64,000 nucleotides of DNA from Synechococcus sp. PCC 7336 (GTDB lineage: Bacteria; Cyanobacteriota; Cyanobacteriia; Thermostichales; PCC-7336): the NCBI RefSeq assembly GCF_000332275.1, contig NZ_CM001776.1, forward strand, positions 4,152,008 through 4,216,007, written 5' to 3'. Position 1 is the first letter of the stretch; each line of letters begins with the position of its first letter. A program made the position numbers and the translations under genes. A model generated the notes under the pieces. The model made no database searches, had not been told where the DNA came from, and saw nothing but the letters and a program-made list of their open reading frames with translations. Positions 53,578 through 63,237 of the stretch are shown in pieces.

Positions 53578-53847
53578 ATGACCACAAAGACACTGGACAG
53601 CAAGGGGCGGGTTACGCTTGGAGCGCAATACGCTGGGCAAACTGTCGACATTGACGATTCCGACCCAGGCTGCATTTTGATTAAGCCGGTTGTGATGATT
53701 CCAGCACAAGAGGCTTGGTTGTACAACAATGAAATAGCATTGCATCGCGTCCGGGAAGGGTTGAACGATGCTCGTCATAGTGTATTCTCAAGCTCGCCTC
53801 CTGATGTTGAAGCAGATATGGAGTGGTTGGATGACATCGACGACTAG
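53578..53847 (+). CDS. AbrB-like antitoxin
   Basis: An 89-residue protein with TKTLDSKGRVTLGAQYAGQT, a MazE/AbrB-type strand start, then an acidic end (SSSPPDVEADMEWLDDIDD). It lies 76 bp before a RelE-like toxin gene in the same direction. It likely neutralises that toxin and represses the pair. Confidence 0.75.
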   Translation: MTTKTLDSKGRVTLGAQYAGQTVDIDDSDPGCILIKPVVMIPAQEAWLYNNEIALHRVREGLNDARHSVFSSSPPDVEADMEWLDDIDD

Positions 53848-53923
53848 TTGTGTGATTCAACTTAACGAGACAACGAACAGGCATCCGACTTGGTTGCCTG
53901 TTTAATTTTCTAGGAAGCGCCGT

Positions 53924-54271
53924 ATGTACGAAATCAAGTGGACAGAGACTGCGGACAAAACATACGCCGATTTGAAAGCAACGGCAAAAGCGAACAGAGA
54001 AGCAAGAAAGAAAAAAAAGATCGAGAAGTCAACTCAGCAAGAGGGGCTATTCAAGCAAGTTGCGAAGACTGTCAAATTTCTGAAAAGCAACCCGCGCCAT
54101 CAAGGGCTAAATACACACGAATATGATTCCATACCACACCCGTATGACAAAGACAAAAAGGTTTTCGAAGCGTACGTACAAAATAGAACATCAGGCGCGT
54201 ATCGCGTGTTTTGGTGTTACGGCCCCGATAGGAATCAGATAACGATTATTGCTATTACGCCTCACCTTTAG
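53924..54271 (+). CDS. RelE-like toxin
   Basis: A 115-residue basic protein (EIKWTETADKTYADLKATAK, VKFLKSNPRHQGLNTHEYDS, FEAYVQNRTSGAYRVFWCYG, ITIIAITPHL). This is the RelE/ParE superfamily outline, with a lysine-rich insert (ARKKKKIEKST). It follows the AbrB-like antitoxin. Confidence 0.78.
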   Translation: MYEIKWTETADKTYADLKATAKANREARKKKKIEKSTQQEGLFKQVAKTVKFLKSNPRHQGLNTHEYDSIPHPYDKDKKVFEAYVQNRTSGAYRVFWCYGPDRNQITIIAITPHL

Positions 54272-54384
54272 CAAGGGGAGATGCAGCAGCGGAGCAATCC
54301 GCATAACGTTCGGCACCATCGGTGCGAGCAGAAACTGAAAACTCAAGTAGCAGTAGTGTTGGTCGAGCATCCGAGTGCATGCGT

Positions 54385-54431
54385 TTGTTAGACAAGGTGA
54401 CCCTAACCTATAATGTACGGTGTTGCCGTAC
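54385..54431 (+). promoter_or_regulatory. Promoter and palindromic operator of the YefM-type gene
   Basis: A -35 candidate TTGTTA (54385-54390), an 18-bp spacer and a perfect -10 TATAAT (54409-54414) are followed by GTACGGTGTTGCCGTAC (54415-54431), an inverted repeat with a GTACGG arm. YefM antitoxins bind TGTACA-like palindromes in their own promoters, so this fits autoregulation. Confidence 0.6.
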
Positions 54432-54446
54432 GTTTAGGGCCTTCCA

Positions 54447-54662
54447 ATGGATACCGTGAGTGTAAACAAGTTCCGAGACACGCTCAGAGATTGCGTTGAA
54501 AGAGTGGTCAGGCAGCATACCCCTCTTAAAGTTACTCGCCGAAATGGAAAGGACTTTGTCGTAGTCAGTGCCGAAGACTGGGAGCGAGAGCAAGAAACAT
54601 TATATGTGCTACAGAACAGTAACTTAATGAAGCAGATCTCCGAGTCAATGCCTACTCCATAA
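54447..54662 (+). CDS. Phd/YefM-family antitoxin without adjacent toxin
   Basis: A 71-residue protein with DTVSVNKFRDTLRDCVERVVRQHTPLKVTRRNGKDFVVVSAEDW, the Phd/YefM N-terminal domain, and a short C-terminal toxin-binding tail. The next gene is on the opposite strand and is not a toxin, so this antitoxin is solitary here. A YoeB-type toxin end is at position 1, but it is far away. The gene has its own good promoter. Confidence 0.82.
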   Translation: MDTVSVNKFRDTLRDCVERVVRQHTPLKVTRRNGKDFVVVSAEDWEREQETLYVLQNSNLMKQISESMPTP

Positions 54663-55308: not shown

Positions 55309-55803
55309 TCACAAATTTACATCGCTAGTCAGCAACCTATCTAGCCCTGTCGCCATTATTACAGTAGGTTGATAACCGATCGCCGTCGAAACCAAAGCTC
55401 GATCGCCTGCCTCATCCTGTCTAGAACCCACAAACGCATAATGGGGTACCCCCATCACGCCGAATTTCCGTATCTGTAGAGCCCACTGCGGATCGTCAAT
55501 ATCCAGCATGACAAAATTGACGCGATCGCCATACTCCTCATGCAAACGCGCGATCGCCGGAGCCATCGACCGACAAGTGGCGCACCATTCCGCATAAAAC
55601 TCCACCAACGCTGGCTTGGAGTCAGCCATTGCCACAGAATAGGTCACCGATTCAGCCGCCAATTGCTTGAGGGCGGCAAAGTCCGAGAGTAAGGAACTGG
55701 CGAATGCTGGGGGATTCGTCCATAACAATCCAACAGCAAGGGCGATCGCCAATCGCCTCACCAACTGCAAGCGGCCCCAGAACTGTTGTAAAACTCCAAA
55801 CAT
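55309..55803 (-). CDS. Membrane-anchored thioredoxin (TxlA/HCF164-like)
   Basis: A 164-residue protein. An N-terminal hydrophobic helix (RRLAIALAVGLLWTNPPAFA) is followed by a thioredoxin fold with VEFYAEWCATCRSMAPAIARL (W-C-A-T-C active site), NFVMLDIDDPQWALQIRKFG and a cis-proline in GVPHYAFV. HCF164/TxlA proteins deliver reducing power to the lumen or periplasm, where they keep apocytochrome cysteines reduced before haem attachment. That fits the neighbouring multihaem cytochromes and System II genes. Last gene of the operon. Confidence 0.85.
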   Translation of the reverse strand: MFGVLQQFWGRLQLVRRLAIALAVGLLWTNPPAFASSLLSDFAALKQLAAESVTYSVAMADSKPALVEFYAEWCATCRSMAPAIARLHEEYGDRVNFVMLDIDDPQWALQIRKFGVMGVPHYAFVGSRQDEAGDRALVSTAIGYQPTVIMATGLDRLLTSDVNL

Positions 55804-55819
55804 AGACAGCGAAAATCCT

Positions 55820-56410
55820 TCACTGGAAGTAAAACGCCAACAAAATATGAATACTCAGCATCGAGCCAAACAAACTCACCAACACAATATGCACCCCCAA
55901 CCACACCGAGCGCAAACTGCGAATGAGTTGACCTTTAGGAAACGTCAGCCAACCCACAACAGGCAGGAGGGTTATTTTGCGATCGATCGTCCCCACCAGC
56001 CAAGTTTCTAATGCCACCCCAAACATCGCCACCAAGGACAGCGTGAGAAACACGATTAAGAAAACACGATTGAACGTACTGCCGATCGCCCCCACCGTAT
56101 GAACGATCGCCATACCCACAAACGCGACTCCCAGAAAGATATGAAAACTGCGCCAAAACAGAATTGAACCGGGTAGCTTAATCTTCCAGCGACGTCCTCG
56201 CTTGCGCAGTGTCAAAATCATCTCCAACGCAAAGAATCCCAAACAGATAAACCCAGTAATCTGCTTGTAGAGTCCCCGCCGCAAAATTTGGTGAAAATAA
56301 AATGCACTATCGCGAACAATCGGCAAATACCAATCGCTAATAAACAGCGGCACGAGCAGCACGAGGGCGATCGCCGTCAGAACCGCTAGAGTTGGAAAAG
56401 TCGGTTTCAT
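55820..56410 (-). CDS. Cytochrome b-like membrane protein with two H-X13-H pairs
   Basis: A 196-residue protein with five hydrophobic segments, from ATG 56410. The third segment has H-IFLGVAFVGMAIV-H and the fifth H-IVLVSLFGSMLSI-H, each with thirteen residues between histidines. Two such pairs are a common pattern for stacked b haems, as in ferric reductase/NOX and b561-type proteins. It probably moves electrons across the membrane. It lies between the Tll0287-like and thioredoxin genes on one operon. The partner donor or acceptor is unknown. Confidence 0.72.
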   Translation of the reverse strand: MKPTFPTLAVLTAIALVLLVPLFISDWYLPIVRDSAFYFHQILRRGLYKQITGFICLGFFALEMILTLRKRGRRWKIKLPGSILFWRSFHIFLGVAFVGMAIVHTVGAIGSTFNRVFLIVFLTLSLVAMFGVALETWLVGTIDRKITLLPVVGWLTFPKGQLIRSLRSVWLGVHIVLVSLFGSMLSIHILLAFYFQ

Positions 56411-56471
56411 AGCCTGTGGGTAGGTTCGATGGGGACCCCCCTTCCCCATCCGTTGTTAGAGCTCGTGAGGA

Positions 56472-57143
56472 CTAGGCCGGACCGAGGGGCAGAGAAATCA
56501 CCACCCCTCCCATCACGTCATTCAGTTGGAATACCTTATCGGGATAGCGCTCTCGGTGAATGGGATGCTCGTTGTGGCAGGTGACACAAGCTTCTGCCAC
56601 AGCGCGATCGGGATACATTGCTGTCATATACCCCTGACCGTTAATCACTTGCTCCCGCTTCACGGGTTCGCCCGTGGCTTCCATCTCGGCGATCGCCTCT
56701 TTTTCAAAGTCAGTTTTAGGAGACTGAGCATCGTTGATATTCCAGCTAGAAATCAAACCAATGGTGAAGTTGCCAGCTAGAGGGCTATCGGACGTCACTT
56801 CCGACGCTAAACGGAACATTTGAGCTGGCAGAGGAATGCCAGCTTCGGCGTCCCAAAATTCAGTCGCGTTACCTTCTACCACGGCAGTATCCAGCGTGAC
56901 GGGCTGACCTTCCAACTCCGTTAGGCGGTTGACGACGTGTCTGACATAAGCAGTCCGAGCCCCTTTCGCCGTAGCGGCGATATAGTCCACCACGATCTCT
57001 GGGGGAATGCCTTGACTGGCTTGCTGTGGGGGTGGGCCGCTGCAGGCCACAACGGTAAACAGAGCGACGATCGCAAAGGTGGCGAGGGCCGTAACTCGAT
57101 GGTTGAGGCGGGCGAGCCAGTCTTTTAATTTCGATAAATTCAT
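56472..57143 (-). CDS. Tll0287-like (DUF3365) monohaem lipoprotein
   Basis: A 223-residue protein from ATG 57143 with a signal peptide ending FTVVACSG (lipobox-like C). The Tll0287-like region (MFRLASEVTSDSPLAGN-type, then NPWN-less SWNINDAQSPKTDFEKEAI) ends with one haem site ACVTCHNEHP. Tll0287 of Thermosynechococcus is a c-type haem protein of unknown function. It sits 65 bp below the hexahaem gene and belongs to the same operon. Confidence 0.82.
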   Translation of the reverse strand: MNLSKLKDWLARLNHRVTALATFAIVALFTVVACSGPPPQQASQGIPPEIVVDYIAATAKGARTAYVRHVVNRLTELEGQPVTLDTAVVEGNATEFWDAEAGIPLPAQMFRLASEVTSDSPLAGNFTIGLISSWNINDAQSPKTDFEKEAIAEMEATGEPVKREQVINGQGYMTAMYPDRAVAEACVTCHNEHPIHRERYPDKVFQLNDVMGGVVISLPLGPA

Positions 57144-57207
57144 GATTTTTCCTCTCTTTAAGTGCAATGAGCTCGACAATTGAGCGAAGGGACGGGAGTG
57201 AACGGCA

Positions 57208-58056
57208 TCAGCTCGGATTCGGACTGCGGCCCGAATCGCGAGTGAAACTTGTGCGGCTGTCGCGCTGCTGGCGTACCATCTGCAACGTTTTGAGGTCTTG
57301 GCTGGACGCTCGGGCAAAGTTGGCTTCGACGACCTCGTCGTCAAAAATATTGTTGTAGGCAAACTCCATGCCGTGGCAGTTCATACACACTTCCGACACC
57401 ATCCGATCGCGGGGTTTGAGGGTGAAGGTATTGTTGTGGTTGACCGCCACCTGGCCGGAGTGACGATAGCGAGGTAAGTGACAAGTGGCGCAAGTCACCT
57501 CCCCTCCACTCGGCCTGGGCAAGCTTTCATGTCCCGCTAGCAAACCTGCATGTTTCGAATTGACGTAGGCGAGTGAATGGGGGTCGTTGTGGCAGGTCAA
57601 ACAGGAATCCACCGCTGCTGTCCGCGTGTCGAGCCGGTGGACTTCGTGGCAGGTATTGCAATTCATCACTCGATCGAGGGAGTCTAACTTCATCGGCAAC
57701 CTTGCCATTGCAGGGGTCAGAGGCGTTTGCCCTTCTAATAGACGAATGCCGTGCTTGCCGAACAAAAATGTCTCTGTCGCTGCCTCGTGGCAACTGCGAC
57801 AGCTCTCGAGATCGGGATGGACCACAAAGGTTTCTGTCTGTTCGGGTTGGTGGCAACTGGAGCAATTCACCTCCTGCAGAGCGTGGGCGCTGCCCCTCCA
57901 CAGCTCGGTCGCTCGATCCACCGTCAAGGCATGGGCGGGCAGACTGGCGATCGCGCTATTCAGCAGGAGAGCAAAGGCGGCGATCGCCAGCCCTAACCTC
58001 CGACCGAGTAGCGATCGCCATCCGTGACGCCTCTGTAACCGAGCCCTCCCTGCCAC
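57208..58056 (-). CDS. Hexahaem cytochrome c
   Basis: A 282-residue exported protein. It is read from GTG 58056, which follows the stop of the previous gene by 1 bp (TAG-C-GTG). It has a signal peptide (LGLAIAAFALLLNSAIASLPAHA). Six C-x-x-C-H haem sites are seen: CSSCH, CRSCH, CNTCH, CLTCH, CATCH and CMNCH, with further histidines (EVHRL, PHSLAY, KHAGLL, RYRHSG) for sixth ligands. Proteins of this kind pass electrons over long distances outside the membrane. The C-terminus (about 60 residues) lacks haem sites. Confidence 0.88.
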   Translation of the reverse strand: MAGRARLQRRHGWRSLLGRRLGLAIAAFALLLNSAIASLPAHALTVDRATELWRGSAHALQEVNCSSCHQPEQTETFVVHPDLESCRSCHEAATETFLFGKHGIRLLEGQTPLTPAMARLPMKLDSLDRVMNCNTCHEVHRLDTRTAAVDSCLTCHNDPHSLAYVNSKHAGLLAGHESLPRPSGGEVTCATCHLPRYRHSGQVAVNHNNTFTLKPRDRMVSEVCMNCHGMEFAYNNIFDDEVVEANFARASSQDLKTLQMVRQQRDSRTSFTRDSGRSPNPS

Positions 58057-58057
58057 G

Positions 58058-58684
58058 CTACTGACCCCACAACTCGCGATTGAGATCGGGGGCGGGAGCC
58101 ACTGCCACCTCGGGCGCAAGCTCCCGCTCCTTCAGATGGGGTTCGGGCAACCAATCCGGTTGGTCTAAATTGACCCGCAAAAACCCCGTCGAAATCGAGC
58201 GGTGGTCGTGGAAATTGTGGCAGCCTGCCGTCCAGCAACCGTCGGGTTCAAAGCCGATGTGGCTGTCCAAGCTGTCGGGGTTACCTGCTGTAATAATGTG
58301 GTCGTGACAGTTCATGCACAGATCGGGAGGAATGTGGACCCCTCGGCCAAACATGGGCAGATGCTCCTGATGGCAAGTGGTGCAAGTTAGAACATCAATG
58401 TTTTCCAGGTACCCTGCCCAACGCAGCTCGCGAAATTTGCGCTGTCCGTGGACATCGGCAGCCATCTCCGCTTCGTGGCAGCGATTGCAAGTGTCGTTGG
58501 TTACGGGTTGGAACTTCTGGTGGCAAGACTCGCAGGAGGCTTCGAAGAGCTGGTGACCGGGGGAGGTGGGTCCGGGCAGAAAGGCAACGCGCTGTTCGAG
58601 TCCCAAACCTAAAATGACGGCCAAGATCGTTAACGCGATCGCCGCCGTACCAATCACTGCCGTTTTGAGTCCGAACCTGCACAA
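58058..58684 (-). CDS. Membrane-anchored multihaem cytochrome c (pentahaem-like)
   Basis: A 208-residue protein starting at TTG 58684 (GTG 58657 is an alternative), with an N-terminal membrane helix (AAIALTILAVILGLGL). Haem sites: CESCH, CNRCH, CTTCH and CMNCH, plus CWTAGCHNFH, a C-x4-C-H form that would be a fifth, unusual haem site. It resembles NapC/NirT-related anchors by layout, but not by clear sequence. It may take electrons from the quinone pool or the b-type protein and pass them to the hexahaem protein. Confidence 0.82.
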   Translation of the reverse strand: MCRFGLKTAVIGTAAIALTILAVILGLGLEQRVAFLPGPTSPGHQLFEASCESCHQKFQPVTNDTCNRCHEAEMAADVHGQRKFRELRWAGYLENIDVLTCTTCHQEHLPMFGRGVHIPPDLCMNCHDHIITAGNPDSLDSHIGFEPDGCWTAGCHNFHDHRSISTGFLRVNLDQPDWLPEPHLKERELAPEVAVAPAPDLNRELWGQ

Positions 58685-58710
58685 CGTGTCACACCAATCG
58701 GCGAGAGGAC

Positions 58711-59250
58711 TTAGAGAACCAGAATGACGCCGAGCACCACAAAGCCAGCTAAGGTAACCGCGAGGGGAATCATGCCACCGCGATTGCCGTCAGCCACAAC
58801 GAGCGCTGTCGCCGCTTCGGCCGATAGAGCCACCTCCCCAGCAGAATAGTCAGCTCCATCCAACATCAGTTCGGTGATGGCACCGTAGGCATCCACCCAA
58901 GCCTGTTTGACTGCGGGTTTCCAGTCATCGCCGAGGTACTGCTCGAAGGTTTGCAGCAGAGCGGCACCGACGAGGGGGTAATGCTCGGGCAGTGCGCCAT
59001 ATTGAACGTGGCGGGCGCCGAGCCCTCGCAAGGTAGAGCCCAAAACATCGCCATTGCGTAAGTTTTCGACCACCAGTACCAAGGAAGCCAGCAACTTTTT
59101 CTGTTGGGATTCGGGATCGACGTGGGCAAATAGAGGTTTGGCTGCTGGCGCAGACTCAAACAGATTCGTATAGAAGGATGCGGCAAACTGCGGACCTGAT
59201 GGTTTAATTTTCGCAAAGCTGCTTTCGAGCAGTTCGACATTTAAAGCCAT
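58711..59250 (-). CDS. Globin with C-terminal membrane anchor
   Basis: A 179-residue protein. Residues 1-135 are a globin of the bacterial haemoglobin class: FAASFYTNLFESAP (B-helix Tyr), PLFAHV (CD1 Phe), GARHVQYGALPEHYPLVG (proximal His81) and WVDAYGAITELML. Residues about 155-179 (GGMIPLAVTLAGFVVLGVILVL) form a hydrophobic helix, so the globin would sit on the membrane. First gene of the multihaem operon. Possible roles include oxygen or NO binding or electron transfer; none is shown. Confidence 0.85.
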   Translation of the reverse strand: MALNVELLESSFAKIKPSGPQFAASFYTNLFESAPAAKPLFAHVDPESQQKKLLASLVLVVENLRNGDVLGSTLRGLGARHVQYGALPEHYPLVGAALLQTFEQYLGDDWKPAVKQAWVDAYGAITELMLDGADYSAGEVALSAEAATALVVADGNRGGMIPLAVTLAGFVVLGVILVL

Positions 59251-59651
59251 TAATTTTAGTTCCTTGTTACGGTTAGAGCTCTGTTTCAGTGAGGAATAAA
59301 CCTTACTCTATTTCTCACCCCTCCACCGCCCTTTTGGGTGATTCAAACGACAATTCGACGACCGCCTCAAAACCAGAATCTGCCACAGGGCCAACTGCAT
59401 GAATCGAATCCAAGCTCCAACAAATCAAGAGCGATTGGGTGCGTGTTAAGAACGAACAGTATGGCTTAGGTGGGCCACAAATCGTAGCGAACAATACTAT
59501 TGATGCCTGTTTCGAGCTCATGTTTGCGGGCTGCGCATATGTTTAATCCTTTGACTGCATGGCCAGATTATTCTGGTGTCGAGTGAGACAAAATCACTTT
59601 GCGGACCGCAAGATAGGGTTGACTGAATCCATTACTGTCCTATCGAAATTT
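59251..59651. promoter_or_regulatory. 400-bp divergent control region of the haem operon and ccs genes
   Basis: No supported gene. An inverted repeat GTGAGGAATA...TATTTCTCAC (59289-59318) lies about 39 bp before the globin ATG and may be an operator or a leader hairpin. The region should hold both divergent promoters. Confidence 0.45.
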
Positions 59652-61457
59652 ATGTTTCAACCTATGCAGGGAAAAGTCCTCAAGTTTCTCGGATCGATTC
59701 AGTTGGCGGTTCCCCTGTTGGGGGCGATCGCCCTCGTTTTAATCGGGGCTACGTTTTACGAGGCTCGAGTGGGCTCGGAGATCGTGCAGCGGCAGATTTA
59801 TAAAAGTGGCTGGTTTGGGTTACTGATGTTTGGCTTGGCCATTAATTTAGGGGTTTCGGCTCTATCCCGCTTTCCTTGGCGCGGCGCTCGCAAATGGGGT
59901 TTTGCCCTCACCCATTTGGGCTTAATCGTTTTAATCGCGGGCTCGGCAGCGGTGATTCACCTCGGCGTGGAAGGAATGCTGCCATTGCGCACAGATTTGG
60001 CGGCCAATCGCCTGTTGCGACTGCAAGGAGAAGTGTTTGAGGTGCTTTTGCCCGATGGCAGCAGCCGCTCGATCGATCTGGCGGTTGGAGGGAATGGCAG
60101 GCTACAGCGGCGCGAGCTGGAGGGGCTAACGCTGGTAGATTATCGCGATCGCACCCTGGCCGCGACTCAATTTGTCGAGGGAGGATCGGCGTCCAATCCC
60201 GCTCTGCACCTGAGGCTAACCAGTCAGCGAATGGGGCAGGCTGTAGAGGAATGGTTGGCTGCGATGCCGGCGAGTGCCCGTCAAGTGAATTTGGGTCCGG
60301 CGACGTTGGAGCTGGTTCGAGCCAATAGCGAGTCAGAGCTAGCGAGATTATTAAAGTCTCCCGAGAAGGTGCGAGGACGCTGGGGATCGGTGGTGCTGGA
60401 GGGAAATGGCGATCGCCTCGAACTGGATGTGGAGCGGTCAGTCGGTCAAACCATTGCCCTGACCGACCGACTGACGGTGCAGGTGGTGAATTTCTGGCCC
60501 GATTTTCGCCTCAACGATCGCAACGAGCCCGCAACGGCTTCCGAGCAATTGCTCAATCCGGCGCTGCAGTTGCAGGTGACTGGAGCTAGGGGGATGGAAC
60601 GGTGGTTTGTCTTCGGTCGCGACGACTTGGAGTCAGTGCGAACGGTTGTGTCTGGCGAGGCTTTAGACCTGAGCGCGAGCTATCGAGCCCCGAGTGCGGC
60701 GGTTTCGAATGTGTTTCGGGCGATTGTGGGTCCGCAGGGGAATGTGTACTACTCGGTCAATGGCTCGCAAGGGTTTCAATCGGGCTCTCTGAGGATCGGG
60801 GCACCGATTCCATTGGGCTGGGCAGATTTTCAGATCGAGTTGACAGACTCGATTCAACAGGCGGTGTTGCAGCGGCAGGTCGTCGAAGCCGGACTGGGGG
60901 ATGCGGAGGCAATCCCGGCGGTTTTAGTAGAAACTCCGAATGGCGATCGCCGTTGGCTGCAGTGGGGCATACCCCAAGCCTTCGAGACAGAAGACGGCCC
61001 TATTTATGCCGCTTACAGCCCCAAGTCGATGGAGTTGCCGTTTGCCGTGGCCCTAGAAGATTTCATCGTCGATCGCAATGAGGGCTCGGATGCAGTGGCA
61101 ATGTGGACCAGCCGGATTCGCATTGACGATCCCGCCCTCAACGGTCACGAGCACCGCACAGTCTGGATGAATCATCCCACTTGGTATCGCGGCTGGAAGA
61201 TTGCTCAAGCCTCTTGGAATCCGGGGGATTTGCGACAGTCCACGTTGCAGGTCAAGCGGGAACCGACCTGGGTAACAGCGCTGACCTGGACGGGATCGCT
61301 CTTGGTGGTGACGGGGATTGGGGTGATGTTTTACGGGCCGGGGGTTGCAAAGCAGTTGCGATCGCGATCGAATGCTGGCCCTCCTGCCGAGCCCAATCCC
61401 CTTGACGAGCGGACTGTACCAGAGTCGTCTGACTTGCCTTCAGAGGCGATCGCCTAG
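59652..61457 (+). CDS. ccs1: ResB/Ccs1-type cytochrome c maturation protein (large form)
   Basis: A 601-residue protein from ATG 59652. N-terminal helices include SIQLAVPLLGAIALVLIGATFYE, GLLMFGLAINLGVSALS and WGFALTHLGLIVLIAGSA; a long periplasmic part follows, and the C-terminal segment has NHPTWYRGWKIAQASWNPGD before a last helix. Ccs1/ResB and CcsA form System II, which attaches haem to apocytochrome c. The size exceeds the usual cyanobacterial Ccs1 (about 450 residues). It precedes ccsA by 64 bp and diverges from the multihaem operon, so it probably serves those cytochromes. Confidence 0.88.
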   Translation: MFQPMQGKVLKFLGSIQLAVPLLGAIALVLIGATFYEARVGSEIVQRQIYKSGWFGLLMFGLAINLGVSALSRFPWRGARKWGFALTHLGLIVLIAGSAAVIHLGVEGMLPLRTDLAANRLLRLQGEVFEVLLPDGSSRSIDLAVGGNGRLQRRELEGLTLVDYRDRTLAATQFVEGGSASNPALHLRLTSQRMGQAVEEWLAAMPASARQVNLGPATLELVRANSESELARLLKSPEKVRGRWGSVVLEGNGDRLELDVERSVGQTIALTDRLTVQVVNFWPDFRLNDRNEPATASEQLLNPALQLQVTGARGMERWFVFGRDDLESVRTVVSGEALDLSASYRAPSAAVSNVFRAIVGPQGNVYYSVNGSQGFQSGSLRIGAPIPLGWADFQIELTDSIQQAVLQRQVVEAGLGDAEAIPAVLVETPNGDRRWLQWGIPQAFETEDGPIYAAYSPKSMELPFAVALEDFIVDRNEGSDAVAMWTSRIRIDDPALNGHEHRTVWMNHPTWYRGWKIAQASWNPGDLRQSTLQVKREPTWVTALTWTGSLLVVTGIGVMFYGPGVAKQLRSRSNAGPPAEPNPLDERTVPESSDLPSEAIA

Positions 61458-61521
61458 CTCGGCCCGCCAGCAACCTCCTTGGAAACCCATTCGCACCCAC
61501 AATAATCTATACCGACTTCTG

Positions 61522-63237
61522 ATGAAAATACTTAAATTTTGCTTTGGTCTCCTGCTGGCTTCGCTGTTCATTTTTCTCCCCACGAGCACATGGCAGCCCG
61601 CCCCCACCGACGGCTTGCAGACGCTGGCCGTGCAGTTAGACGGTCGCAAAAAACCGTTGGATACCGTTGCTCGCGAAGCTATAACGCAGATGCACGGGTC
61701 GGTCAATTACCAGCCAGTTAATGGCGAGAAGTTGGACTATCTGAGCACCTATTTGTCAATCTGGTGGAACGATCGCGATTGGAATCGAGAGCCCTTCATC
61801 CTGGTCGACTATCGTCCGCTGAAGGAAGCCGTGGGGCTGGATGGAGAACGCAAATACTTCAGCTTTCAAGAATTGATGCAGTCTGAATTGCCGCAGGCGT
61901 TCGGGCAGGCGCAGCAAAAGCAAGCCGCCGATCGCGATCTGAGTCGAGGCGATCGCGAAGCCCTCACCGTGGCCGATCGGATGTCGCTGATGTTGGATAC
62001 GGTGGCGAACCGCAATGCCGTGCCCCTCGTGCCCCATCCCACTGATGCGAAAGGGACTTGGGTGGGGATCGAGCGAGCTGCAGAGTATTACGACGCCGAA
62101 AGAGCAGCGGCTCTGCTGGATGCATTTCAGCTCCTGCAGTCAACCTATCTCCGTCTCGGCGATGCCGCAGCGATCGCGCCAATGGCGCAGGAACTGCACC
62201 GTCAGTTGCAGCAGTTGAGTCCCGAGGTATATCCCGGCGATCGCGTCTTGGCACGCGAGGTGTTTTTCAATCGCTTGCATGCTTTTGGCAAGACGTGGAA
62301 GATTTTTGCGCTGGCGTTTGTGGCCATGTTGGCGGTGACGCTGCTGCCCCTACCCAATGGGTATTGGACTGCGATGGGGATATTTGTGGCGGGATTGGGC
62401 ATCCAGATTTACGGATTTGCCCTGCGGATTCAGGTGGCCGATCGCCCGCCAGTCACCAATATGTACGAGTCGGTGGTGTGGGTGGGGTTTGGCATTGCGG
62501 CACTGGCAACAGCCTTCGAGCTGCGCACTCGGGCTCGCTACTATCTCTTGGCCGCAGCTCCGCTGGCGATCGCCGCTCTAGTGTTGGCAGATAGTTTGCC
62601 AGTGGTGTTGGATGCTCGCATTCAGCCACTCGTGCCGGTATTGCGGGATAATTTTTGGTTGAGCGTCCACGTCCCGACGATTGCGTTGAGCTATGCCTGT
62701 TTTGCGCTGGCAATGGGATTGGGGCATATTATTTTGGGTCATTATTTATTCGCCTCGAGCGCAACGCAGCGGTTGCAGAAGTTGTCGAAATTGAATTACA
62801 GCGTCTTGCAGGTGGGGGTGTTGCTCTTAGCTGCCGGCATTATTTTGGGTGGCATTTGGGCGCACTTTTCTTGGGGTCGTTTTTGGGGCTGGGACCCGAA
62901 GGAAACTTGGGCGGCGATCGCTCTGCTCTGCTATCTGGCTCCCCTCCACGGTCGCTTTGTCGGCTGGACGAACAATTTCGGTTTGGCGGTGGCTAGCGTG
63001 GTGTCCTTTAATGCTGTTCTGATGGCTTGGTATGGGGTCAACTTTGTCTTGGGTCGGGGGTTACACAGTTACGGTTTCGGCACCGGAGGTTCTGGCTGGA
63101 TTGGAGCTTGGGTGGCTCTCGATCTGGCCTTCGTCTTAGCTGCTGCACTGCGACATCGAGCTGGATTGCCTGCAAGCTCCAACAGTTCAGCTCCTGTAGA
63201 AGAGCAGCGAGAGCCAGTCGGCAACTTGTCCCTCTAG
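61522..63237 (+). CDS. ccsA: CcsA-type cytochrome c maturation protein with N-terminal extension
   Basis: A 571-residue protein from ATG 61522. The N-terminal 300 residues (signal-like helix, then LAVQLDGRKKPLDTVAREAI and LSTYLSIWWNDRDWNR) resemble the periplasmic part of large CcsA proteins of non-photosynthetic bacteria. The C-terminal half is the haem-handling domain with the W-W-D motif WGRFWGWDPKETWAAIALLCY and histidines in HVPTIALSYA and HLFIYP-like LAPLHGRFVGW. Standard cyanobacterial CcsA is near 340 residues. It pairs with ccs1. Confidence 0.88.
   Translation: MKILKFCFGLLLASLFIFLPTSTWQPAPTDGLQTLAVQLDGRKKPLDTVAREAITQMHGSVNYQPVNGEKLDYLSTYLSIWWNDRDWNREPFILVDYRPLKEAVGLDGERKYFSFQELMQSELPQAFGQAQQKQAADRDLSRGDREALTVADRMSLMLDTVANRNAVPLVPHPTDAKGTWVGIERAAEYYDAERAAALLDAFQLLQSTYLRLGDAAAIAPMAQELHRQLQQLSPEVYPGDRVLAREVFFNRLHAFGKTWKIFALAFVAMLAVTLLPLPNGYWTAMGIFVAGLGIQIYGFALRIQVADRPPVTNMYESVVWVGFGIAALATAFELRTRARYYLLAAAPLAIAALVLADSLPVVLDARIQPLVPVLRDNFWLSVHVPTIALSYACFALAMGLGHIILGHYLFASSATQRLQKLSKLNYSVLQVGVLLLAAGIILGGIWAHFSWGRFWGWDPKETWAAIALLCYLAPLHGRFVGWTNNFGLAVASVVSFNAVLMAWYGVNFVLGRGLHSYGFGTGGSGWIGAWVALDLAFVLAAALRHRAGLPASSNSSAPVEEQREPVGNLSL

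Follow-up and report, generated by a model that had tools for sequence, protein, structure and literature searches.

A conserved cyanobacterial gene cluster of a globin, multihaem c cytochromes, a predicted dihaem b cytochrome and large Ccs proteins, with a putative NtcA-type promoter

Organisation of the locus

As a rule, a bacterial globin is either a free-standing protein or a fusion with a flavin reductase or a sensor. In a 64,000-nucleotide stretch of the Synechococcus sp. PCC 7336 genome (positions 4,152,008 to 4,216,007 of NZ_CM001776.1, a single contig of 5.07 Mb; the whole stretch is hereafter called the window), a globin gene is genetically locked to a chain of multihaem c and predicted b-type cytochromes that has its own maturation genes. 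The cluster consists of six genes on the reverse strand and a divergent pair coding for large Ccs1 and CcsA proteins. All eight had been described in an earlier note made from the letters alone, and they were recovered where that note had placed them, with some starts refined; Pfam matches and counts of haem motifs bore out the identities it gave to the globin, the penta- and hexahaem cytochromes, the Tll0287-like protein, the thioredoxin, Ccs1 and CcsA. Taken with the comparisons below, the cluster is almost certainly a conserved system. Its features, in window coordinates, are the following.

55309..55803, reverse strand: thioredoxin (WCATC), its N-terminus resembling a signal by eye; PF00085, 3.3e-15
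55820..56410, reverse strand: five-helix membrane protein with two H-X13-H pairs (His90/104 and His174/188), predicted dihaem b cytochrome
56472..57143, reverse strand: Tll0287-like (haem c Cache) lipoprotein with one CXXCH and no further Cys apart from that of the lipobox (by eye); PF11845, 1.2e-17 (longer open reading frame)
57208..58119, reverse strand: hexahaem cytochrome c with an N-terminal hydrophobic segment (42-60); six CXXCH; PF14537, 2.7e-10
58058..58684, reverse strand: pentahaem cytochrome c with an N-terminal hydrophobic anchor (9-27); four CXXCH and one CX4CH; PF14537, 1.1e-7
58711..59250, reverse strand: tail-anchored single-domain globin of 179 amino acids (aa); Pfam Globin, 1.5e-16; hydrophobic segment 161-179
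59456..59461, reverse strand: predicted -10 box TACTGT (TAN3T) of an NtcA-type promoter, 22 bases past the NtcA site
59484..59497, reverse strand: predicted NtcA-binding site GTATTGTTCGCTAC, an exact GTAN8TAC upstream of the globin, at -247 from its ATG
59664..61457, forward strand: large Ccs1 (ResB family); PF05140, 7.2e-13; alignment to relatives
61522..63237, forward strand: large CcsA/CcsB, extended at its N-terminus by about 285 residues; PF01578, 2.3e-28; alignment to relatives

Alignment with relatives led to revised ATG starts for the Tll0287-like gene (57143), the b-type gene (56410), ccs1 (59664) and ccsA (61522). The pentahaem start, a TTG, is tentative; the 58119 start of the hexahaem gene overlaps the pentahaem gene, and the GTG at 58056 is the likelier start. 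Both multihaem proteins matched PF14537 (Cytochrom_c3_2) in the Pfam search, in which the H-X13-H protein exceeded no family cut-off. Hydropathy analysis gave five segments in the b-type protein and one, C-terminal, in the globin; the thioredoxin, which we take to be HCF164/TxlA/CcsX-like, has no segment above the threshold used, its export signal having been read by eye.

Conservation, distribution and history

When genomes of 84,980 species, one per species, were scanned on the basis of a pentahaem alignment and two short peptide patterns, 57 loci besides the window's were obtained; to judge by the record titles all are cyanobacterial, a restriction that holds within the scope of those patterns. 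A sample of 386 genomes of the phylum, including that of the window, was also searched (G-labels denote its genomes and L-labels denote loci); the scan loci L019 and L026 were taken to be those of G360 and G213, and G170 provides one locus more. Neighbours were counted at the window's locus and the scan loci, only where the contig leaves room. The pentahaem gene is accompanied by the globin at 49/49 loci, the hexahaem gene at 56/56, the Tll0287-like gene at 52/52 and the b-type gene at 46/46. The less constant neighbours are the thioredoxin, found in its usual place at 33 of 43 loci, a large ccs gene (18 of 23) and a Rieske gene (15 of 23). Identity to the window copy is about 44-64% for the five core proteins across dozens of divergent loci and 32-39% for the thioredoxin. 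The same gene order in so many divergent loci argues for more than chance, and the neighbourhood, which the earlier note allowed might recur in no relative, is clearly conserved.

Within the phylum sample, the hexahaem protein was matched over most of its length in four genomes, belonging to four different families. The other three share the gene order, have the large ccs pair nearby and carry a small Rieske protein beyond ccsA; no such Rieske gene was found in the stretch read beyond ccsA of the window genome, which has three weaker matches elsewhere. PF14537 occurs in 16 of the 386 genomes. Twelve of these belong to other classes, and the remaining four, all of the window's class, are exactly those with an intact operon, in agreement with the rarity of multihaem c cytochromes that the earlier note had given for oxygenic cyanobacteria. 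A hexahaem match in G175 was rejected as noise, as it covers 40 residues near the N-terminus and no system genes are present there. On plasmids, the b-type protein had no match and the pentahaem protein two partial ones (35% coverage), in acetic acid bacteria.

Concerning the maturation genes, large CcsA scores above 900 bits in six of the 386 genomes, the next best score being 217 bits, and the b-type gene, whole or partial, is found in the same six. The suggestion that the haem chain has a maturation set of its own is thereby strengthened: the association of the large ccs pair with the chain is a strong correlation, not proof, and it is limited by the five of 23 loci with at least about 9 kb on both sides that lack a large ccs gene. 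The ResB and Cytochrom_C_asm domains characteristic of cytochrome c maturation System II exceed their Pfam cut-offs, and CcsA matches TIGR03144 at 4.1e-44, under the cut-off of that model. An ordinary CcsA (a 340-aa frame) is also present elsewhere in the window genome.

Long CcsA frames (602-615 aa, 180-217 bits against the alignment of the large CcsA) were also observed, along with PF14537 matches, in G004, G010 and G018, from another class of the same phylum; the combination is perhaps a distant parallel.

Two of the six genomes with large CcsA and the b-type gene, G054 (L081) and G211 (L082), carry decayed loci. Neither has a globin, pentahaem or hexahaem gene in the 19.9-kb stretches read, nor any hexahaem or PF14537 match genome-wide. 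The b-type gene of G054 is in two parts separated by a transposase-like frame (by eye), its ccsA has one internal stop, and a pentapeptide gene is broken by two further transposase-like frames (by eye). As for G211, the remnants are ccsA, the thioredoxin, ChaN-like and pentapeptide genes (both by eye) and, of the b-type gene, a C-terminal fragment; ccs1 was not found at this decayed locus. A midpoint-rooted tree of four concatenated proteins, built for those 43 of the 58 loci in which none of the four was missing, places the window copy and that of Synechococcaceae SM2_3_1 on the deepest branch; the Moorena copies group together, as do those of Roseofilum, and the Symploca copies are split. 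These data fit what would be an old locus lost in most lineages, loss being indicated by the two decayed loci. Judging by the names in the record titles, many carriers are presumably marine benthic, mat, reef or symbiont strains or genera.

A putative NtcA-type promoter

The canonical NtcA-activated promoter, as given in PMC3898017, combines a TAN3T -10 box with a GTAN8TAC site whose centre lies near -41.5. In upstream regions of up to 400 bases, the core GTAN8TAC was present before 30 of 51 globin genes vs. 30 of 224 other open reading frames (ORFs) of the same loci (Fisher p 8e-11, a value that overstates independence, the loci being related). Core spacings of 7 and 9, used as controls, gave 1 and 2 occurrences, and five other palindromes 0-11, in the 51 regions. 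The full class II layout, GTAN8TAC-N20-24-TAN3T, was found in 22 of 52 globin upstream regions of up to 700 bases, the window's among them, as compared with a mean of 0.36 and a maximum of 4 in 200 first-order Markov resamplings; with GTA/TAC spacings of 6, 7, 9 and 10, the counts of the complete layout were 2, 0, 0 and 0. When the loci were grouped at 80% pentahaem identity, at least one member had the complete promoter in 13 of 22 groups, and the core site (400-base regions) in 18 of 22. With first-ATG starts and ORFs of at least 200 aa, 16 of 32 globins had the core, the other system genes giving 0-12 per 30-55. Control of the globin operon by NtcA is thus predicted with high confidence.

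Some counts detract from this prediction. The unrelated palindrome GATN8ATC occurs in 11 of the 51 globin regions; with the core fixed, other -10 spacings were found in 11/52 regions at N15-19 and in 2-7 elsewhere. Seventeen of the 52 regions have the core and no -10 box at N20-24, nine have a relaxed site only and four have none. Among the four intact operons of the phylum sample, the complete promoter is present in two, those of the window and G360, and for globins of the operon family lying outside the operon it was found in one of the seven parsed (an eighth, L091, was not parsed). The ccs1 promoter has the complete form in 1 of 31 cases and the core in 14 of 31; as the complete form is mostly missing there, these counts give no support to the idea that NtcA governs the ccs pair jointly. 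FNR, CRP, DNR, LexA-like, NsrR and Fur-like motifs were also sought upstream of the globin, with no clear enrichment.

The globin

The alignment covered 117 globin domain entries from 65 globin ORF entries, numbers that include nested duplicates. Tyr27, Gln49 and His81, which we take to be positions B10, E7 and F8, are present in 110, 111 and 112 of the 117, respectively. The best relatives among solved globins are 3s1i (103 bits), a flavohaemoglobin (73 bits) and 1vhb (70 bits), of which the first is presumably Hell's Gate globin I and the last presumably derives from Vitreoscilla. These features mark the predicted pocket as O2-binding and like that of a nitric oxide (NO) dioxygenase, in a protein with no reductase domain: Globin is the sole Pfam domain of the window globin, the reductase domain is absent, and the score against NF009805 is 70.1 bits vs. 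a cut-off of 432.

When one globin was counted per locus, for 52 of the 58 loci (among them L052, cut at a contig end), one domain was found at 21 loci, two at 24, three at five, four at one and five at one. A C-terminal hydrophobic anchor is present in 42 of the 52, including all 31 multi-domain globins. The membrane anchoring that had been read from the window copy therefore stands for that copy and for most loci and is not universal. Since the window globin has no N-terminal hydrophobic segment, it should face the cytoplasm.

Globin genes of related kinds were observed in other positions. An extra anchorless globin gene (about 175-180 aa) follows the b-type gene at L010 (L010:7331-7861) and also at L033, L037, L044, L052 and L071. 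A 661-aa fusion of two globins, a membrane part and pentapeptide repeats, from the family of the operon globin, is encoded at L097:3692-5677 (G127), and G199 and G030 have long frames similar to it. At L099:6085-6525 (G129), a lone globin of the operon family lies next to a HEAT-repeat-like gene (by eye); as such a gene (also by eye) flanks the operon of G360 (L009:12404-13603), this globin may be another remnant.

The cytochromes and the Tll0287-like lipoprotein

Four CXXCH and one CX4CH were counted in 54/54 pentahaem ORFs, and six CXXCH in 56/56 hexahaem ones. Conserved histidines were counted on alignments of 45 of 54 pentahaem, 47 of 56 hexahaem and 46 of 50 b-type sequences. The pentahaem protein has six other conserved His in 45/45, a number sufficient for bis-His ligation; the hexahaem protein has exactly six further conserved His, five of them in 47/47 and one in 46/47, which fits six bis-His haems with no open catalytic haem. 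Profile matches to two decahaem families, DmsE and GSU2203, stayed below the cut-offs. The hexahaem protein is weakly similar to the DmsE family and, among solved structures, to HAO-like and NrfA chains; against the latter kind of target the pentahaem profile has weak matches only (best E 0.036).

The Tll0287-like lipoprotein scores 65.1 bits against PF11845 (cut-off 24.1) and has the CXXCH of that family, while an alignment of four sequences gave chance matches only against solved chains. In 48 aligned sequences, Tll0287 itself not being among them, no conserved Cys was found beyond the lipobox (by eye) and the CXXCH, so that no axial Cys ligand appears to be available. In PMC12889525, a 2026 preprint, a member of the Tll0287 family lacking the axial Cys binds NO tightly.

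A second PF11845 protein is encoded elsewhere in the window genome (G000:C1:1636669-1637178); it has 300 aa and, by eye, a membrane helix and a HAMP-like tail.

In the b-type protein, the only conserved His are the four that form the two H-X13-H pairs (46/46), and from these pairs in membrane helices it is predicted to be a dihaem b cytochrome. The loop between helices 2 and 3 is strongly basic, which by the positive-inside rule suggests a position close to the cytoplasm for the first His of each pair and one close to the lumen or periplasm for the second; between them, the two b haems would span the membrane. The alignment profile matched no solved chain. For the structural model (predicted local distance difference test, pLDDT, 83), the best redox-protein rows of VIA-align 2 were cytochrome b6, HyaC and FdnI (Z 8.1-9.1); cytochrome b6, at Z 9.1, stood amid unrelated helical bundles scoring as high or higher, which makes the likeness to these folds suggestive only.

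Proposed function and alternatives

As a tentative reading, possible rather than probable, we propose a nitrogen-controlled transmembrane haem relay that would keep a cytoplasm-facing, often tandem globin reduced for O2 or NO chemistry. NtcA, active in nitrogen shortage, would switch the operon on, and the large Ccs1 and CcsA, with the thioredoxin, would load the c haems. By way of the two b haems, stacked in the membrane, electrons would pass between c haems located in the lumen or periplasm and a globin that faces the cytoplasm, and the ferric globin, re-reduced between turnovers, would either consume O2 with NO, as an NO dioxygenase giving nitrate, or scavenge O2. The whole would in effect be a flavohaemoglobin with a transmembrane haem wire in place of the flavin reductase. 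The sequences themselves give the genes present, the conservation of the haem ligands and the promoter signal; the direction of the electrons and the NO chemistry are what we infer. Taken separately, a transmembrane chain that includes the globin is probable, if not assured, whereas NO dioxygenation, though the likeliest chemistry, is doubtful as the main reaction. It is distinctly unlikely that all parts hold together, that is, that an NO dioxygenase globin re-reduced across the membrane by a dedicated wire of c and b haems turns NO into nitrate under nitrogen shortage; if true, NO from neighbours in mats, corals, sponges and ascidians would be an assimilable nitrogen source.

In favour of the relay are the strict synteny of the five core genes, the conserved haem ligands, the globin pocket and usual anchor, the NtcA-type promoter, the tight NO binding by a Tll0287-family member that lacks the axial Cys, and SyNOS, discussed below. 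Several observations speak against the proposed relay. The C-terminal anchor is missing in 10 of the 52 operon globins. The b-type model ranked first with an unrelated bundle, a talin chain (Z 11.4), and its best Foldseek E-value was 1.3, with none below 1. The AlphaFold2 model of the hexahaem protein has a pLDDT of 51 and a predicted template modelling score (pTM) of 0.25. In PMC12889525, stand-alone members of the Tll0287 family, such as those of the operon, are given redox-like roles, and the C59A mutant of the stand-alone Pseudomonas putida member, a mutant that lacks this Cys, also bound NO, weakly. Finally, electrons could run outward, and cytoplasmic reductases could be a simpler way to reduce the globin.

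The outward direction is at the core of the main rival, an electron outlet during nitrogen starvation, which we consider rather unlikely. The b-type protein would oxidise plastoquinol and pass electrons through the penta- and hexahaem proteins, and the Rieske protein where present, to an acceptor in the lumen, in the periplasm or outside, relieving an over-reduced photosynthetic chain, and the globin would only scavenge or sense O2 or NO. A membrane protein of b type with multihaem c proteins is a usual outward layout; the NtcA-type promoter at the globin operon and the Rieske gene at 15 of the 23 loci with room agree with it too. However, MtrB_PioB is without a match in the window genome, no terminal reductase was recognised in the cluster, and the window copy has no adjoining Rieske gene, only the weaker matches elsewhere. 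Strict linkage to the globin (49/49) would also need a separate reason under this explanation.

It is improbable that cells of mats and reefs use the system to exchange electrons, inward or outward, with minerals, electrodes or partner cells. Such a use would suit the eleven c haems carried by two proteins of bis-His type, the sub-cut-off DmsE and GSU2203 matches, and the many carriers that are presumably mat, reef or symbiont strains; it is opposed by the lack of MtrB_PioB in the window genome, by the lack of a porin among the four recurrent neighbour groups (no profile search was aimed at porins) and by the nitrogen control, which would not be expected.

Still less probable is a role in haem or iron homeostasis, in which the globins, a ChaN-like protein and the Ccs proteins would store or move haem. 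ChaN-like neighbours were seen by eye in 9 of the 58 loci, in G170 and at both decayed loci, but the window genome has no PF04187 protein, and two multihaem cytochromes, the b-type protein and the NtcA-type promoter would be left unexplained. Least probable of all is the protection or supply of nitrogenase by a globin lowering O2 near the membrane during N2 fixation, since, despite the NtcA-type promoter and above-cut-off nifH in G170 and G213, it fits poorly with the lack of above-cut-off nifH in the window genome and G360, both with an intact operon, and with its presence in G054, where the operon has decayed.

Comparison with known systems

The globin domain and the pocket residues are like those of flavohaemoglobin (Hmp), Vitreoscilla haemoglobin and Hell's Gate globin I. 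The operon globin lacks the flavin reductase that defines flavohaemoglobin, and it differs from Hmp and the single-domain haemoglobins in being often anchored (42/52), in having one to five tandem domains and in being locked to a multihaem operon. A membrane-anchored multihaem c protein together with a further multihaem c protein is likewise found in the NapC/NrfH-NrfA and Mtr/Dms chains; the operon differs in its globin partner and in a b-type protein of no assigned family. Unlike NrfA and octahaem nitrite reductase, the hexahaem protein has only CXXCH sites, no CX2CK being counted, and no catalytic haem motif; its score against PF02335 (NrfA-type) is 19.5 bits, under the cut-off of 24.1. The porin that defines MtrCAB was not matched in the window genome (MtrB_PioB, PF11854).

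Like the dihaem bundles of cytochrome b6, FdnI and HyaC, the b-type protein has two H-X13-H pairs in what is predicted to be a bundle of membrane helices, although it has no sequence match to solved chains and its Z scores are within the range of unrelated bundles. The lipoprotein shares PF11845 and one CXXCH with Tll0287/DUF3365 (haem c Cache), but it has no axial Cys candidate, is a lipoprotein by eye and keeps a fixed place in the operon. As for System II (Ccs1/CcsA and an HCF164/CcsX-like thioredoxin), the same domains and a thioredoxin are found in the cluster, which differs in being a large second set beside the ordinary CcsA encoded elsewhere in the genome. Another cyanobacterial globin tied to the nitrogen economy is SyNOS, the globin-nitric oxide synthase (NOS) of Synechococcus PCC 7335, which is reported in PMC6104048 to mobilise nitrogen from arginine to nitrate; it differs in that a single polypeptide includes the oxygenase and reductase domains of NOS and in that c cytochromes are lacking.

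No description of the cluster was found in open-licence PMC full texts, in line with the earlier note, which knew of no counterpart; it may be described elsewhere. The parts belong to known families, and it is the assembled system that was not found described in these full texts. Beyond the reach of that note lay the putative nitrogen control, the tandem arrangement of many globins, the decayed loci and, at other loci, neighbouring genes of Rieske, ChaN-like and pentapeptide type. As, in the phylum sample, the operon carriers are the only PF14537 genomes of the window's class, the system points to a form of electron transfer undescribed in the literature searched. The NtcA-type promoter would tie it to the nitrogen economy, and, with many carriers presumably living in reefs, in mats or as symbionts, it could bear on nitrogen cycling there.

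Other neighbouring genes

A pentapeptide-repeat-like frame, recognised by motif, is present in 38 of the 58 operon loci, mostly 3-5 kb downstream and on the other strand, and is absent from the window's own locus. Close downstream of the operon, at window positions 53578-54662, the window has small toxin-antitoxin-like genes, identified by eye.

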